In this document: one piece after another, positions 6,366 through 15,679 of the stretch
Position numbering within the stretch: position 1 is the first letter of the stretch
Layout: every line of letters starts with the position of its first letter
Virus record (IMG/VR): IMGVR_UViG_3300032323_000880
Span: 1 to 31,626 of that record
Length of the DNA stretch: 31,626 bases
Reading direction: 5' to 3' (one strand)
Source of the DNA: a virus
The notes under the pieces: model-generated
What the model saw: the letters and a program-made list of their open reading frames with translations, nothing else
Databases searched by the model: none
Told to the model about the DNA's origin: nothing
Translations under genes and position numbers: made by a program

Positions 6366-7087
6366 TGGAGCAATACAGACCAAGATTAAATCAGCATGAA
6401 TGGGAGATCATTCAGGGAATTAGAAATGCAAAAAGAGGTGGTGGAGTTTTGGAGATTGGAGATCTGCATGAGCCTTTCTGTTTAGATGAATATTTAGATT
6501 TCTGCATTGAGCAGAAGCATAGATATAAAACTGAAAAGGTAGTATTCCTTGGTGATATCATTGACAATCACTATGCATCCTATCACGAAACAGATCCTGA
6601 TGGCATGAGTGCCTTGGATGAATTGAACCATGCTATAGATCGAATAAAAAAGTGGAGGGATGCTTTTCCTGAAGCCGTGGTGATTATTGGAAACCATGAC
6701 AGGCTAGTAATGAGAAAAGCCTACACGGCAGGGATTTCAAAGAAGTGGATTAAGACCTACAAGGAAGTACTTGAAACTCCAGGATGGGACTTTGTTGAGG
6801 AGCATATCCTTTATGACAATCTCTATGTTCATGGTGAACAGGGTACTGCTATAGCAAGGGCTAAATCGGATTTGATCTCTACTATTCAGGGTCATAGACA
6901 TACCGAAGCCTACACGAATTTCGCAGTAGGAAAGAACTTCAAACTATTTGGAAAGCAGGTAGGATGTGGAATTAATAAACAGACCTATGCCATGGCATAC
7001 GCAAAGGCAGGAAAGAAGCCTGCTATAGGTGTAGGCATAACCCTTGACTACGGAAAACTTCCATTTAATGTAATGATGGAACTCTAA
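6365..7087 (+). CDS. Calcineurin-like metallophosphoesterase
   Basis: The 240-residue protein carries all metallophosphoesterase motifs in order: GDLHEP (D33, H35), GDIIDNH (D64), GNHDR (N110, H111, D112), an HGEQG His (H156) and GHRHTE (H177, H179). These ligate two metal ions in phosphoesterases that cleave phosphomono- or diesters. The protein is cytosolic (no signal). Substrate is not evident. Phage enzymes of this kind may act on DNA ends or nucleotides. Its place between head/holin genes and the endolysin is common in Bacteroidota phages. It ends convergently with the HNH gene, overlapping it by 4 bp. Confidence 0.85.
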   Translation: MEQYRPRLNQHEWEIIQGIRNAKRGGGVLEIGDLHEPFCLDEYLDFCIEQKHRYKTEKVVFLGDIIDNHYASYHETDPDGMSALDELNHAIDRIKKWRDAFPEAVVIIGNHDRLVMRKAYTAGISKKWIKTYKEVLETPGWDFVEEHILYDNLYVHGEQGTAIARAKSDLISTIQGHRHTEAYTNFAVGKNFKLFGKQVGCGINKQTYAMAYAKAGKKPAIGVGITLDYGKLPFNVMMEL

Positions 7088-7584
7088 ACCACATGAGGCC
7101 AAAGTTTACCATTTAATATTTTTGAAATAGTTTGCTGAGTCATATTGAATTCTTTTGCTATATCCTTTTGATAGATTCCATTTCGTTCATTTCGAATAAT
7201 CCTGATCTGATCATCTGTTAATTTTGATTTGTGATTCCTTTGACCCTTTAGCATTACTCTCAATCCCGTTCTATCTGCGTGCCTCATATTTTCAGACCTG
7301 TTGCACCATTCAAGATTTGACAAATGATTATTTTTTTTGTTGCCGTCAATATGATTTATTTCATTTTTACCATTGACTATATCAAGAAAATTTAACCCTA
7401 CCAATCTGTGAACAGGAAAGGGATATTCTTTTCCATCCTTGAGAAGTTTAACTCGTAGATATCCTAGACTGGATTCTACATTTGTCATGATTAATTCCCT
7501 TCCTCTTTTCAATGATTTGACTCTTCCAAACGAACTGATTTGATAATGACCTTCAAATCCTTTGACATTTTTCCAAATTTCCAT
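7084..7584 (-). CDS. NUMOD4/HNH homing endonuclease
   Basis: This is the only minus-strand gene inside the late region. The start is taken at ATG 7584 (MEIWKNVKGFEGHYQIS), the canonical NUMOD4 start, rather than an upstream ATG at 7602. The product is 166 residues: NUMOD4 at about 1-50 (YQISSFGRVKSLKRGRE), HNH with H59 and NHIDGNKKNNHLSNLEW (78-94), then a C-terminal HTH at about 121-160 (IYQKDIAKEFNMTQQTISKI). Free-standing homing endonucleases cut an uninfected cognate site and spread by repair. Its isolated antisense location and lower G/C content than neighbouring late genes fit recent mobile insertion. Confidence 0.85.
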   Translation of the reverse strand: MEIWKNVKGFEGHYQISSFGRVKSLKRGRELIMTNVESSLGYLRVKLLKDGKEYPFPVHRLVGLNFLDIVNGKNEINHIDGNKKNNHLSNLEWCNRSENMRHADRTGLRVMLKGQRNHKSKLTDDQIRIIRNERNGIYQKDIAKEFNMTQQTISKILNGKLWPHVV

Positions 7585-7708
7585 AAAATAAAACCGCCCC
7601 ACTTCAAGGGGTAGCAGTCCCTATCCATGAGGCATTTGGTTTTTAGTTTTTTTGATCGCTGCTACCCGATAAACAAACATACTAAAAAAAATCTATATTT
7701 ACAATAGT
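7585..7708. other. Divergent intergenic region with inverted repeats (HNH leader / endolysin upstream)
   Basis: This 124-bp region lies between the divergent HNH and endolysin genes. GGGTAGCAG (7609-7617) and CTGCTACCC (7659-7667) form a 9-bp inverted repeat around 41 nt. On the minus strand a smaller CCCC/GGGG hairpin is followed by a T-rich run just before the HNH ATG, as in a translational or transcriptional leader. On the plus strand the A/T-rich sequence before 7709 holds TATATTTA (7694-7701), a partial -7 element without a clear -33. Confidence 0.5.
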
Positions 7709-10302: not shown

Positions 10303-10557
10303 ATGAACTACGAAACAGAAAATTTCTACGATCAAGAGATTGAATTCACCTACGAAGGTAGGGAGTACGTCTGGCAAGGAGACTACACCATAGAACATAC
10401 TGGAGAAGATGAAAGCGAGTACGCTCCTGCCTATGGAGAAATGGAGATTTGTATAGATCACACATCAAGCCTAATATGCTATGAGCAAGGAAAAGAGGTC
10501 ATCCCTACTAGATCTATGATGATGGCACTAGAAATCCAAATTGAAAGAAACTATTAA
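10303..10557 (+). CDS. Hypothetical acidic protein
   Basis: The 84-residue protein is rich in Glu, Tyr and Asp (MNYETENFYDQEIEFTYEGREYVWQGDY...). It predicts short beta strands followed by a C-terminal helix (TRSMMMALEIQIERNY). Its acidity is reminiscent of DNA-mimic or inhibitor proteins found early in phage genomes, but there is no motif to support that. It starts 22 bp after the UUCG hairpin in an A-rich leader. Confidence 0.55.
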   Translation: MNYETENFYDQEIEFTYEGREYVWQGDYTIEHTGEDESEYAPAYGEMEICIDHTSSLICYEQGKEVIPTRSMMMALEIQIERNY

Positions 10558-10579
10558 CCAAAACCAAATAAACAAACCA

Positions 10580-11131
10580 ATGGAAAAATCCAATTCAATT
10601 CAAAACCTTACCCAAGGACTAGCCAAGTTTCATGCTATGGTAGGTAAGATTAGCAAGGATGCAAAGAATCCTTTCTTCAAGTCCAACTATGCAAGTCTTC
10701 CTCACATCATCACGGAGATCTCAGAACCTATGGAGAAGGCAGGTCTAGTGATCTCTCAATTCCCTGATGGGGATGGGCTCACTACGATGCTAATTCACGC
10801 AGAGAGTGGTGAGTATTTATCAGCTACCTACACCTTGCAAGTAGTACGGCAGAACGATCCACAGGCTCAGGGTAGTGCCTTGAGTTATGCTAGAAGATAC
10901 GGATTAACTTCAGTCCTTAATCTAGCCATTTCAGATGATGATGCAGAGGCAGCAATGAAGCCTTTGAGACAAGCACCTGCACCTGCAAAGGTAGCACCTA
11001 CAGAAGCCCAATTTGCAGGCATAGTACAGTACTTGAATGGAACTCCAGAGCAGCAGAAGACAGCCAAGGAGGCACTAAAAAAATACACCTTAACCAAGGA
11101 GCAGCAAGAAATAATCGAAGGACTACTATGA
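10580..11131 (+). CDS. erf: ERF-family single-strand annealing recombinase
   Basis: The product is 183 residues from ATG 10580 (MEKSNSIQNLTQGLAKFHAMV). A TTG start 39 bp upstream overlaps the previous gene and is rejected. The family signature GSALSYARRYGLTSVLNLA lies at about 98-116, preceded by NPFFKSNYASLPHI (30-43), both diagnostic of ERF (P22) recombinases. These ring-forming proteins bind ssDNA and anneal complementary strands, which supports recombination and genome circularisation. A Pro/Ala-rich linker (about 130-143) leads to a small C-terminal helical segment. It is near the Gp157-like, SSB-like and RusA genes. The 3' end overlaps the next gene (ATGA). Confidence 0.9.
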   Translation: MEKSNSIQNLTQGLAKFHAMVGKISKDAKNPFFKSNYASLPHIITEISEPMEKAGLVISQFPDGDGLTTMLIHAESGEYLSATYTLQVVRQNDPQAQGSALSYARRYGLTSVLNLAISDDDAEAAMKPLRQAPAPAKVAPTEAQFAGIVQYLNGTPEQQKTAKEALKKYTLTKEQQEIIEGLL

Positions 11132-11373
11132 ATATCGTGAATGTGCTTGTACCGGATGCGTACAAATTGAAAAAAAGAAAGGATGGCACTTTCACATCTG
11201 TAATTGTAGATGAGGAAATAGATCCATTTAATGTAGAATTTATAGGAGGTGAATGTATCGAAATAGATACAAATGAAATGGCTTACATAACCCTGTCAAT
11301 AAATAACCTTTACCAGATTATTGACTTGATTGAAAAAGCAGAATACAAATATTCTAAACAAAGAAAAAAATGA
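11128..11373 (+). CDS. Hypothetical protein in the recombination cluster
   Basis: The 81-residue protein is coupled by ATGA to the ERF gene and to the Gp157-like gene. The N-terminal half is beta-rich (MNIVNVLVPDAYKLKKRKDG), with an acidic middle. The C-terminus is an amphipathic helix (SINNLYQIIDLIEKAEYKYSKQRKK) with a basic tail. No motif is recognised. Its tight position between two recombination proteins suggests an accessory role. Confidence 0.6.
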   Translation: MNIVNVLVPDAYKLKKRKDGTFTSVIVDEEIDPFNVEFIGGECIEIDTNEMAYITLSINNLYQIIDLIEKAEYKYSKQRKK

Positions 11374-11852
11374 ACCTATACCAGATCACACAGGAGGCGC
11401 AGTATCTTGCTGCCCTCCTTGAAACCGAAGAACTAACTCCAGAACTAGAGGCAGAACTGCTAATCAATCAGGAGCAACTACAGACCAAAGGTATAAACTA
11501 TGCGAAGGTGATAGCAAACTATCAAAGCGAAGCGGATCAAATAGATGCCGAAATCAAGCGACTCAAGGCTATGAAAGAAAGCAGAGATAAGAAGGTCACA
11601 TGGTTGACTGAAAGCCTTAAGAAAGCCATGCTAGTAAGCGGAATTGAGAAGATAGAAAGCCCACTATTCAAGATATCATTGAGAAGATCCGAGGCGGTGG
11701 AGGTAGAAATCCCAGAGGCTTTGCCGGTAGATTGGCAGGTAAAAAAGGTCACGATCACAGCGGATAAAGTAGCAATCAAAAAAGCAATCAAGGAAGGCTA
11801 CTCGATCACGGGTGCTAGACTAGTAGAAAACTTCAACCTATCAATCAAATGA
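11370..11852 (+). CDS. Siphovirus Gp157-like protein
   Basis: The 160-residue protein has the Gp157 layout. A long N-terminal helical coiled coil covers about 1-85 (INYAKVIANYQSEADQIDAEIKRLKAMKESRDKKVTWL). A conserved beta segment follows (KIESPLFKISLRRSEAVEVE, about 93-112), then VDWQVKKVTITADKVAIKKAIKEG and a C-terminal GARLVENFNLSIK. Gp157-family genes sit beside ERF/SSAP recombinases in many siphoviruses, and resistance to superinfecting phage has been attributed to the original member. The molecular activity is not known. Confidence 0.8.
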   Translation: MNLYQITQEAQYLAALLETEELTPELEAELLINQEQLQTKGINYAKVIANYQSEADQIDAEIKRLKAMKESRDKKVTWLTESLKKAMLVSGIEKIESPLFKISLRRSEAVEVEIPEALPVDWQVKKVTITADKVAIKKAIKEGYSITGARLVENFNLSIK

Positions 11853-12779: not shown

Positions 12780-12979
12780 AAACTGACTCACAGACTGCCT
12801 TGATCAAGGGATGGCTATTGAATGGCTACTCAATCACCCAACTAGATGCCTTGAATATGTTTGGCTGCTTCCGGTTATCCGCAAGGATAGCCAATCTACG
12901 AGAGGAAGGGCTTGATATTGTCACCGACATGGTGAATGTAAATGATAAAAGAATAGCAAAATACTACCTGAACAAATGA
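12776..12979 (+). CDS. HTH_39-like helix-turn-helix protein
   Basis: The 67-residue protein is a single winged-helix-like domain: QTALIKGWLLNGYSITQLDALNMFGCFRLSARIANLREEG, then a short wing (LDIVTDMVNVNDKRIAKYYL). The pattern of ITxLDALxxFGCxRLxARIxxLR is diagnostic for the HTH_39 family found in phage early regions. Likely DNA-binding, target unknown. It is coupled on both sides by ATGA overlaps. Confidence 0.8.
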   Translation: MKTDSQTALIKGWLLNGYSITQLDALNMFGCFRLSARIANLREEGLDIVTDMVNVNDKRIAKYYLNK

Positions 12980-13341
12980 CCAGAGAAGAAATCATCACCG
13001 AACTAAACCACAGAAGTACTCAGAAGTACTTGGTGTATTTAGCCCTGCAAGAGATAATGCTTGACTACTATGAGGATGTCAAGATGCTCAAATTCTTTGA
13101 TCTTGATTTGCAGACCAAGCATAAGAACATGATCAATGCCCTGAAAAAAAAGTCTACGCAGGCTTTTAGATACCTTGAAGGGTATGATAATGGCGAAGCG
13201 ACTATCAAGCAGTTTCACGAATTTGTGACCTTATTTGAAAGACTGCACACGGCTATAGATTGCGGAGGTGCTGTGTTCCATGATTGCCTGAATGCTGTAG
13301 AAGAAATCCTTGATAGATACGATGGCAAAGAAACTAAGTGA
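12976..13341 (+). CDS. Hypothetical helical protein
   Basis: The 121-residue protein is predicted almost all helical (MTREEIITELNHRSTQKYLVYLALQEIMLDYY...). It has a basic patch in the middle (KHKNMINALKKKSTQAF) and a C-terminal Cys/Asp region (AIDCGGAVFHDCLNAVEEILDRYDGKETK). No known motif. It lies just before the small HTH gene and the structured RNA upstream of the replication initiator, so a replication-accessory role is possible. Confidence 0.6.
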   Translation: MTREEIITELNHRSTQKYLVYLALQEIMLDYYEDVKMLKFFDLDLQTKHKNMINALKKKSTQAFRYLEGYDNGEATIKQFHEFVTLFERLHTAIDCGGAVFHDCLNAVEEILDRYDGKETK

Positions 13342-13465
13342 AGAAGAAAAGGAAAGGATCTTTTCTCTTTGGCAGGACAGGGTGATAACTAAGGCTATAG
13401 CAATAGAAGTAGGTAGATCCTATAATACTGTCTATGTTTATTTAAAAAGTAGATATTTGATTTGA
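13322..13465 (+). CDS. 47-residue helix-turn-helix protein
   Basis: ATG 13322 overlaps the end of the preceding gene by 20 bp and the ORF ends at TGA 13465. The product (MAKKLSEEEKERIFSLWQDR...) is a compact HTH: helix 1 EEEKERIFSLWQ, then TKAIAIEVGRSYNTVYVYLKSR, resembling resolvase/transposase-type recognition helices. Its final codons overlap the TTTG -33 element of the promoter at 13461, so it may act locally on that promoter. Autoregulation is inference only. Confidence 0.6.
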   Translation: MAKKLSEEEKERIFSLWQDRVITKAIAIEVGRSYNTVYVYLKSRYLI

Positions 13466-13490
13466 TATTTGAAAAATAGTATTATATTCG
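13461..13490 (+). promoter_or_regulatory. Promoter of the structured RNA / initiator gene
   Basis: TTTG (13461-13464), an 18-bp spacer and TATATTCG (13483-13490) match the Bacteroidota promoter with one mismatch in the -7 element. Transcription would start near 13497. A direct repeat GATATTTGA (13452-13460 and 13464-13472) overlaps the -33, and the 11-mer GATATTTGATT at 13452 is also present at the other early promoter (10008-10018). Confidence 0.6.
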
Positions 13491-13496
13491 TGCATT

Positions 13497-13583
13497 CAAG
13501 AATCATTCCTGTGTGGAAGCGAGAATGATTCCATAGGTTAACTTAACCTGAGCCTGGCAGTCTTCCACCTGTCGGGCTTTTTT
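13497..13583 (+). ncRNA. Structured RNA with kissing loops and terminator (small RNA or initiator-gene attenuator)
   Basis: No ORF covers this stretch. Three hairpins can be drawn. H1 is GAATCATTC (13500-13508) with GAATGATTC (13523-13531) and a 14-nt loop. H2 is AGGTTA (13535-13540) with TAACCT (13544-13549). H3 is GCCTGGCAG (13552-13560) with CTGTCGGGC (13569-13577), two G-U pairs, then a T-run. The H1 loop contains GTGGAAG (13513-13519), exactly complementary to CTTCCAC (13562-13568) in the H3 loop, a 7-bp kissing interaction. With the promoter in place this gives an RNA of about 87 nt ending 8 nt before the initiator ATG. No known RNA family is recognised. Confidence 0.65.
13552..13583 (+). 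terminator. Intrinsic terminator just before the replication initiator gene
   Basis: A 9-bp stem (13552-13560 with 13569-13577, two wobble pairs), an 8-nt loop and six T residues form a good intrinsic terminator. Its loop carries CTTCCAC, which can pair with the loop of the first hairpin of the same RNA, so termination may be regulated. Confidence 0.75.
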
Positions 13584-13590
13584 ATTTACC

Positions 13591-14307
13591 ATGAAAAAAG
13601 AAGCGTACTATTTTTCCCATGATTCAAATGCAAAGGATGATCCTAAAATTTTGCAATTAAGGATGGAGATGGGATGGGAAGGCTACGGCCTTTTCTGGGC
13701 ATTGATTGAGATGCTGAGAAATGAATCTGATCACAAGATGCGAACGCATTACAAAAGCATTGCATTCGCATTGCATACGCAAGAGGATAGCATCAAAAAG
13801 TTAATTAATGATTTTGATTTATTCGCTATTGATGATCAGTACTTCTGGTCTGAAAGCCTTTTGAAAAGGATGGAGATGAAAGAATCTAAATCTGAAAAGG
13901 CTAGACAATCCGCCAAAAAACGATGGAATCAAGAGAATGATGCGAACGCAATGCGAACGCATAGCGATAGCAATGCAAATGCTATGCAATTAAAGGAAAG
14001 TAAAGTAAAAGAAAGTAAAGAAAATATCTTAACAGAGGAAAGCCATAATGAGATATTTAGAAAACTATGGGCTAGTAGTATTTGGCTTGAAGGAATAGCA
14101 ATAAAGAATAAAGTAAAAAAGGAGCAGGTACAAAATCACCTAAATGATTTTAGACTTGAATGCATCTTAAAGGATGAATTAAAGGTAGATGAAAAGGATG
14201 CAAAAAATCACTTCATTAATTGGATGAAAAGAGGAAACCCTATACCTGTGAAGGAAGAAACTGCACCTAAGTATGCAAAGTCTACGATTGAAAATAATTG
14301 GTGGTAA
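13591..14307 (+). CDS. DUF4373 (Lin1244/Lin1753-like) replication initiator
   Basis: The product is 238 residues. The N-terminal winged-helix domain at about 4-100 has the DUF4373 signature (YYFSHDSNAKDDPKILQL, GWEGYGLFWALIEMLRNE, YFWSESLLKRME). A Lys/Ser/Asn-rich linker (about 98-148) follows, then a C-terminal helical domain (WLEGIAIKNKVKKEQVQNHL, DAKNHFINWMKRG) as in Bacteroidota phage and plasmid initiators. It likely binds the origin and recruits the helicase encoded two genes downstream. The linker DNA carries 11-bp iterons (see separate entry). The start is set by the ATG directly after the terminator. It ends TAATG with the next gene. Confidence 0.75.
   Translation: MKKEAYYFSHDSNAKDDPKILQLRMEMGWEGYGLFWALIEMLRNESDHKMRTHYKSIAFALHTQEDSIKKLINDFDLFAIDDQYFWSESLLKRMEMKESKSEKARQSAKKRWNQENDANAMRTHSDSNANAMQLKESKVKESKENILTEESHNEIFRKLWASSIWLEGIAIKNKVKKEQVQNHLNDFRLECILKDELKVDEKDAKNHFINWMKRGNPIPVKEETAPKYAKSTIENNWW
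13738..14028 (+). other. Iteron cluster and A-rich stretch inside the initiator gene, candidate replication origin
   Basis: ATGCGAACGCA occurs at 13738-13748, 13940-13950 and 13951-13961, the last two in exact tandem. Diverged 11-bp units continue in the same phase at 13962-13972 (7/11), 13973-13983 (8/11) and 13984-13994 (6/11). Inverted related units with an 11-bp step lie at 13757-13769 and 13768-13780. An A-rich, purine-biased tract (about 13985-14028) follows. Since 11 is not a multiple of 3, the repeat is not explained by a peptide repeat. The arrangement resembles lambda, whose origin iterons and AT-rich region lie inside the O initiator gene. Confidence 0.55.
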
Positions 14308-14615
14308 TGGAAGCGAAAGACATACAAAAAATGAATGACCTGAATAGGGATATTTGGGGAATGATAGTACAGGCACAGCGAACTAAGAACTGGGCATTGA
14401 TTGAAGTCAACTTGAAGAGGCTCTATTCCTTACAAAAAAAATATATTAATTTAATCAATATCATGGATTATGAGGTAAAAGGTACTACATTGATGCTTCA
14501 AGATGAAATACGGGTAAGAAATCAATTCGAGAAGCAATGGTTCAAGGATGTAGCAGAAAGAAATCATGCCTACCAAGAGATGAAGGAAAACATAGATAAA
14601 CACTTTGCTGAATGA
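14307..14615 (+). CDS. Hypothetical helical protein between initiator and helicase, loader candidate
   Basis: The product is 102 residues from ATG 14307, which overlaps the initiator stop (TAATG). A TTG three codons earlier is rejected. It is predicted all-helical with a coiled-coil middle (WALIEVNLKRLYSLQKKYINLIN) and a polar C-terminus (FEKQWFKDVAERNHAYQEMKEN). No nucleotide-binding motif is present. Position between the initiator and the helicase suggests a helicase accessory or loader role, which is inference only. Confidence 0.6.
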   Translation: MEAKDIQKMNDLNRDIWGMIVQAQRTKNWALIEVNLKRLYSLQKKYINLINIMDYEVKGTTLMLQDEIRVRNQFEKQWFKDVAERNHAYQEMKENIDKHFAE

Positions 14616-15679
14616 AAAAGAAATCAGATAAGACCTTTGACCTGGACTTCTGCGAGGCATCTATCAAAACCTTTGCAGGGCAGAGAGATTCAATGCTGCA
14701 GAACTTCAGGAAAGGGAAGGAGTCAGGATCGAAGACCTATGTAAGGGATATAGATCAAATCAGTAGTGGAGGGATACAAAATAAAATGTGGTCTTGGAAG
14801 GCAGGAGAATTCAACCTGTGGACAGGATATAATAATGAAGGAAAGTCACAGTTCCTGATTTTTCTATGTGTACTCAAGGCAATAAATGAAGGGTGGAAGT
14901 TCGCTTTCTTCAGCCCTGAAAACTACCCTCCGGATGAATTCTTTGATGACATCATTCACACTATCCTAGGTAAAAGCACAGATAGATTCTACAAGAATTT
15001 TGATGTATCTGAGCAGGAATACTTGAAGGCTTTTGACATGGTGAAGGACTCCTTCTACTTTGTCTACCCTGAAAAGAATGGAGTGCCTGATTTTACTATC
15101 GAGCAGATTGAATCAGTCTTTGAATTCCTAGTATGGGAGAAAGATGTCAAGGCTGTGGTGGTAGATCCATACATAAAGATTAGGCACGAGATGACAGCAG
15201 GAGAACCTGAACACCTTTACGCTTCTAGGTTTATGATGGATAGGATCAACTTCACACGGAAGAATAATGTGTCCTATCACCTAGTCATGCACCAAACTAC
15301 ACCTAGAAAGGAGAAGGATGGAAACTACCCTCCACCTAGCCTATACCAAATCAAAGGTGGTGGAACATTTGCAGACTCTACAGATAATTCAATCAGCGTT
15401 TGGAGACCTAATAGGGCTACTGATCCAAATGATACCACAGTCATCATCAAAACGGATAAGATCAAGAAACAGAAATTGGTAGGAGTACCCTTTGAAATTG
15501 AGATAGACTTCAATAGAAAAAAGAACAGGTACATGGGCAAGGATGGCTTTGACTTCTTTGAGAATGCGAAAAAAGTAACCGGTTCTGAACCGGTTCAAGA
15601 ACCAAGAGTAGAGAAGTTCCACAGATCCGGAATAGAAGATTTTGAATTCAATCAAGAAGAAATAAACGCACCATTTTAA
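14612..15679 (+). CDS. Replicative DNA helicase, RecA-fold (DnaB/Twinkle-like)
   Basis: The 355-residue protein has Walker A GYNNEGKS (72-79), a catalytic-Glu position in FFSPENYP (E103), Walker B VKAVVVDPY (D185), H227-Q228 in VMHQTTP, and the DnaB/Twinkle-type GGGTFADSTDNSISVWR (249-265) with a candidate arginine finger. It lacks the DnaB N-terminal primase-binding domain, so primase recruitment is not apparent. It would form a hexamer that unwinds the fork with ATP. The last 25 residues are acidic/aromatic (IEDFEFNQEEINAPF). It is coupled to its neighbours by ATGA and TAAATG. Confidence 0.85.
   Translation: MKKKSDKTFDLDFCEASIKTFAGQRDSMLQNFRKGKESGSKTYVRDIDQISSGGIQNKMWSWKAGEFNLWTGYNNEGKSQFLIFLCVLKAINEGWKFAFFSPENYPPDEFFDDIIHTILGKSTDRFYKNFDVSEQEYLKAFDMVKDSFYFVYPEKNGVPDFTIEQIESVFEFLVWEKDVKAVVVDPYIKIRHEMTAGEPEHLYASRFMMDRINFTRKNNVSYHLVMHQTTPRKEKDGNYPPPSLYQIKGGGTFADSTDNSISVWRPNRATDPNDTTVIIKTDKIKKQKLVGVPFEIEIDFNRKKNRYMGKDGFDFFENAKKVTGSEPVQEPRVEKFHRSGIEDFEFNQEEINAPF

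Follow-up and report, generated by a model that had tools for sequence, protein, structure and literature searches.

In the attenuators of the plasmids pT181 and pIP501, a terminator lies just before the start codon of the replication initiator and kissing hairpins control termination, which requires an antisense RNA made from the opposite strand (PMC5703833, PMC3753616). In phage P4, the CI RNA is processed out of the same transcript and stops replication-gene expression by pairing with complementary leader sequences outside itself, and Gifsy-1 IsrK is a short RNA at a terminator that is accompanied by a read-through mRNA (PMC4825925). The C4 antisense RNA of phages P1 and P7, which has complementary loop sequences and targets the ant mRNA, plays a role in heteroimmunity (PMC12197685) and appears in the motif list of PMC2864571. 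The window analysed here, the whole 31,626-nt stretch of the virus record IMGVR_UViG_3300032323_000880, likewise has an intrinsic terminator directly before the start codon of a replication initiator and, as in P4 CI and P1 C4, complementary segments within one predicted transcript ahead of replication genes (Table 1). Unlike pT181 and pIP501, it carries both loops in a single sense RNA. No conserved antisense promoter was found: antisense boxes of the type searched for, TAnnTTTG, were scattered in 19 of 101 family members and in 63 of 729 control stretches. Whereas CI pairs with sites outside itself and C4 with the ant mRNA, here both partners belong to one ~89-nt RNA and one of them is the loop of the terminator. 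By analogy, the element would work most like the plasmid initiator attenuators (pT181, pIP501) and the phage leader RNAs (P4 CI, IsrK).

Two further RNA types resemble the element in outline. The phi29-type pRNAs have complementary loops that are maintained by covariation and can pair between copies, and type III toxin-antitoxin loci show the same order of promoter, structured RNA, terminator and then gene. The pRNAs are longer, fold around a three-way junction and are linked to packaging, whereas the element consists of three tandem hairpins with replication genes downstream. It also lacks the RNA repeats and the endoribonuclease toxin gene of type III loci, its downstream genes encoding initiators, primases, DUF3223, MT-A70 or HNH proteins instead. 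To our knowledge, a kissing contact between a 5' hairpin and the loop of the same RNA's terminator has not been described before; a partial search of the literature turned up no example. Rfam gave no gathering-score match in the window and none up to E = 1 in 13400-13650, and the RNA itself went unmatched in nine diverse loci; this sets the element apart from C4 and pRNA and bears out an earlier note on this DNA, made from the sequence alone, which had recognised no known family. Elsewhere in one related locus (L182:389-425) Rfam reported a DUF805b RNA at 40 bits.

Table 1. Features in and around the RNA element, numbered from the first base of the window.
Feature	Position	Strand	Basis or remark
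Small ORF, 47 aa, ending just 5' of the promoter	13322..13465	+	HTH-like by eye (MAKKLSEEEKERIFSLWQDRVITKAIAIEVGRSYNTVYVYLKSRYLI)
-7 box TATATTCG, Bacteroidota-type promoter	13483..13490	+	fits flavobacterial TAnnTTTG
Structured RNA (predicted +1 to end of T-run, ~89 nt)	13495..13583	+	promoter position, fold, terminator scan, covariance model
Hairpin 1	13500..13531; stem 13500-13508/13523-13531	+	9 bp; two more inner pairs beyond a C.A mismatch
Loop 1 kissing core GTGGAAG	13513..13519	+	exact complement of 13562-13568
Hairpin 2	13535..13549; stem 13535-13540/13544-13549	+	6 bp; fold
Hairpin 3, intrinsic terminator stem-loop	13550..13579; stem 13550-13560/13569-13579	+	11 bp including G-U; terminator scan
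Loop 3 kissing core CTTCCAC	13562..13568	+	exact complement of 13513-13519, 7 nt
Terminator U-tract	13578..13583	+	T-run, from sequence
Replication initiator, Lin1244_N + DUF7833, first gene after the terminator	13591..14307	+	Pfam; PHROG 2562 'replication initiation protein'
Helicase-like ATPase, same operon	14612..15679	+	PHROG primase/helicase and DnaB-like families

The element has a predicted folding energy of -37.5 kcal/mol (z = -4.4), and none of 200 shuffled sequences was equally stable. All three hairpins that the earlier note had drawn in 13497-13583 were recovered, the third with a longer stem than the 9 bp given there. The 7-nt loop complement that it had pointed out is exact, and we estimate the chance of such a complement between loops of this size at about 1 in 1000. 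The intrinsic terminator with its T-run, also claimed there, was recovered as the sole terminator that the scan called in 12800-14500. Several G-U pairs in hairpin 3 indicate an RNA of the + strand. A covariance model (R1, with the window itself in its training set) matched 13492-13582 at 82 bits, and minus-strand matches of the model proved to be mirror images of the hairpins. A protein-coding element was rejected, as most members have no stop-free frame. Loop 3 (13561-13568 in the window, and its homologues) reads CUNNNAC, resembling a tRNA anticodon loop, and is mirrored by GUNNNAG in loop 1, where the middle base of NNN is almost always G; some alleles correspond to no usual bacterial anticodon.

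The Bacteroidota promoter proposed directly upstream is supported by TATATTCG, which matches the flavobacterial -7 box TAnnTTTG; as this box was mapped at -12 to -5 (PMC9723704), transcription is predicted to start ~5 nt before hairpin 1. Promoters of this type are not modelled by the sigma-70 scan. Across the family, 97 of 103 members have TAnnTTYR 18-36 nt 5' of the loop-1 core, compared with mostly 0-3% of control stretches (20% in one set), and the box of flavobacterial consensus keeps a near-fixed distance of 19-26 nt ahead of the core. The members listed all end in a T-run, from which the ATG of the first gene is separated by a median of 7 nt. None of 101 members has a TAnnTTTG box inside the RNA or between it and the gene, and the short gap leaves no room for a second operon promoter. 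Barring a promoter within the first gene, operon mRNA, whether begun at the promoter of the RNA or at one upstream, should have to cross the terminator, in keeping with the read-through that had been suggested for initiator transcripts. A short ORF similar to the 47-aa ORF of the window also precedes the promoter in the main-group loci.

Relatives were fetched from IMG/VR by similarity of the initiator protein; the RNA was not used, so retrieval was unbiased towards pairing. All 49 loci that matched over the full N-terminus carry the element immediately 5' of the initiator gene. These contained 31 distinct RNAs, every one with an exact complement of 7-9 nt between loops 1 and 3 and no core mismatch. 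The covariance model also recovered the element in loci fetched via the downstream ATPase and via DNA patterns. Among the ATPase loci the RNA was called in 99 of 114, and only two others reached far enough upstream: L302, where the model found the RNA, and L308 (record G024), where the initiator operon is kept with no model match for the RNA upstream. The RNA is thus not essential in every phage, and L308:1700-3010 is a natural RNA-less relative with the same initiator-ATPase operon. A DNA pattern that left three loop bases free returned 22 loci, 20 of them members in which all free bases were complementary; the other two were chance matches in one same coding sequence, without complement. Our exact-complement caller presupposes loop pairing and was used for anatomy only, not as proof.

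Altogether there are ~100 distinct members, including GC-rich phages with quite different genes, and 32 of 34 records searched hold a single copy of the RNA. The contigs come from metagenomes, and many loci duplicate one another, being copies of a single contig. On these sequence comparisons the RNA family is well supported, and it occurs in many phages that apparently infect Bacteroidota, as judged from promoter type and protein families. Searches of other collections added no members. A pattern scan of 84,980 species genomes gave 21 matches, which we judged non-members (only 3 had complementary free bases); a second model (R2) found two weak matches without loop complement in 790 genomes under strict filters and with no positive control. 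Named phages gave no nucleotide match, and in Tenacibaculum phage JQ there was only a weak match in which the exact loop complement was not seen.

Compensatory change in the three stems and the loop-loop pair had been named as the check on the proposed structure, and the family passed it strongly. In alignment A1 both sides had changed in 16 of 35 pairs (shuffled mean 10.3), and in A6, a broad alignment of 29 sequences, in 27 of 33 (shuffled mean 22.1); 0 of 500 shuffles reached the observed count in either. Covariation scores were 0.264 for A1 (shuffled 0.117) and 0.510 for A6 (shuffled 0.193), and the A1 pair counts were also well above slid controls. All three stems covary, with double changes in 7 of 12 pairs of hairpin 1 in A1 and 11 of 12 in A6, and in 5 of 10 and 7 of 9 pairs, respectively, of hairpin 3. 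Hairpin 2 is the least conserved helix (71-80% of cells paired in A1 and A6), while the kissing helix is 93% paired in A6. Family-wide, 11 different kissing sequences occur with the complement retained throughout; the protein-retrieved set alone contains the cores GTGGAAG, GTAGGAG, GTGGTAG, GTGAGAG and GTCGGAG. Between L003 and L264, one A/T swap in loop 1 is matched by a compensatory one in loop 3, and only one base differs outside the loops in the stretch compared. The contact with the terminator loop is in this way backed by compensatory change, and the loop alleles amount to ready natural compensatory mutants. The family also offers short, possibly orthogonal terminator-kissing parts.

We favour the reading, to which we assign a probability of roughly 45%, that promoter, RNA and terminator form a leader that attenuates the phage replication operon, with the kissing contact tuning termination. 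Structure, loop-loop pairing, promoter-terminator anatomy and position are read directly from the DNA, and it is because the anatomy is that of a terminator-bearing operon leader that attenuation comes first. Transcription from the Bacteroidota-type promoter would yield the three-hairpin RNA, with a 7-bp kissing contact between loop 1 and the terminator loop. Most polymerases would stop at the terminator and release a short stable RNA, and those reading through would make the replication-operon mRNA. The contact between loops 1 and 3, whether made inside a single RNA or by a finished RNA with a nascent leader, would set or tune termination and thereby limit or time expression of the replication genes. 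As the terminator loop is itself the pairing partner, the contact could affect terminator folding, which it might speed, stabilise or hinder. Production of the RNA, the extent of read-through, the sign of the effect and any relevance of pairing in trans are inferences. The family thereby hints at control by RNA of replication genes in phages of Bacteroidota, a phylum in which little is known of how phages regulate their genes.

There is no clear sign of an ordinary two-state attenuator, since the 5' arm of hairpin 3 is mostly free in nascent folds (mean unpaired 0.73; below 0.5 in 17 of 102) and no conserved alternative (antiterminator) fold was found. By crude geometry, a folded hairpin 2 with the shortest linkers, of 3-4 nt, spans ~50-56 Å, and a coaxial arrangement of hairpin 1, kiss and hairpin 3 needs ~80 Å. 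This is suggestive only, but a coaxial intramolecular contact would seem strained with hairpin 2 folded; the strain would be eased if hairpin 2 opened, the RNA bent strongly or two copies dimerised.

The genes that follow the RNA bear on its function. The earlier note's identification of a replication initiator behind the terminator stands (Table 1). Its proposal that the RNA controls the dose of this initiator is not supported, because the same RNA heads unrelated first genes and G024 keeps the initiator operon without it. Across members the first gene encodes Lin1244_N/DUF7833, DUF6291, a DnaD-like helicase loader, a VapE-like or BT4734-type primase, DUF3223, MT-A70 or HNH; it is usually a replication gene, and its identity is interchangeable. 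L387, L388 and L400 have identical RNA bodies, as far as compared, ahead of unrelated genes, so dosing of the window's initiator is not the common function. Relative to the window, L050, L051, L136 and L200 have the N-terminal part of the initiator swapped among unrelated types (Lin1244, DUF6291, DnaD-like), and the C-terminal part of the L051 initiator still matches that of the window. In L182 (2909-3427) an HNH-like endonuclease gene directly follows the RNA and precedes what by eye is a replication-type gene, giving the impression of an insertion between the two.

These contexts bring in the main rival of attenuation, a close one: that the RNA is itself the product, an autonomous small RNA acting in trans on a target in the host or the phage, with its location ahead of the operon serving timing only and the kissing contact giving a compact, nuclease-resistant fold or a homodimer. 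We consider this possible without preferring it. Promoter, RNA and terminator make a complete small-RNA gene, loop sequence and initiator type assort, and the RNA also stands ahead of HNH genes in L182 and L183. RNA bodies that differ by 0-2 bases between unrelated flanks argue the same way; such near-identity of whole RNAs exceeds what a simple terminator needs, and equally fits a trans-acting RNA. The L183 context (6381-6984), where the RNA lies away from an initiator, after a gene that by eye is helicase-like and ahead of an HNH-like gene and virion-type genes, counts against attenuation. On the other hand, a third site complementary to the loop core showed no excess in 20 phage genomes, and the RNA keeps its place at the head of the replication operon even where the genes are unrelated, a constancy not called for by action purely in trans.

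Kissing alleles are scattered on the ATPase tree, needing 21 changes where 7 is the minimum, and many pairings of allele with initiator type are seen, for which reason coevolution of the loops with one initiator type was rejected. The scatter is consistent with allele-specific copy sensing or exclusion, in which finished RNAs pair with nascent leaders or, as closed dimers, with the RNAs of a co-infecting phage, after the manner of copy-control and immunity RNAs, and alleles diversify against cross-talk; the lack of any core mismatch among the 31 protein-retrieved sequences agrees with this, P4 CI and IsrK (PMC4825925) are precedents, and the crude geometry would favour a dimer or an open hairpin 2. 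We nevertheless hold it to be distinctly unlikely: exchange of whole RNA-initiator blocks by recombination scatters alleles too, the idealised geometry would admit intramolecular contact given a strong bend, and no lysogeny gene appeared in the subset of window proteins scanned. The scatter probably owes something both to block recombination and to repeated compensatory change. A bolder version, rather unlikely in our view, would place this RNA in a new class of phage regulators, with a 5' hairpin that kisses its own terminator loop and a private, switchable code of 7 bases by which copies identify one another in trans, a phage-specific copy-sensing or exclusion signal at the head of the replication operon.

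A role at a replication origin, with the terminated RNA or its transcription helping to open or prime an origin inside the downstream initiator gene, appears very improbable. It would accord with the position of the RNA ahead of replication genes, with iteron-like repeats inside the initiator gene (window 13737-13993, ATGCGAACGCA-like units, family D1) and with lambda, whose pO promoter close to the origin sets a precedent (PMC12197685). Against this, the RNA ends at its terminator ~150 nt before the first repeat block, and the replication genes are unrelated in other members, where no origin was mapped. Further upstream of the replication genes, the window encodes an Erf-like single-strand annealing protein and then a Mu Gam-like end-protection protein (10541-11849), and an HNH endonuclease gene on the minus strand (7084-7602) adjoins an amidase gene.
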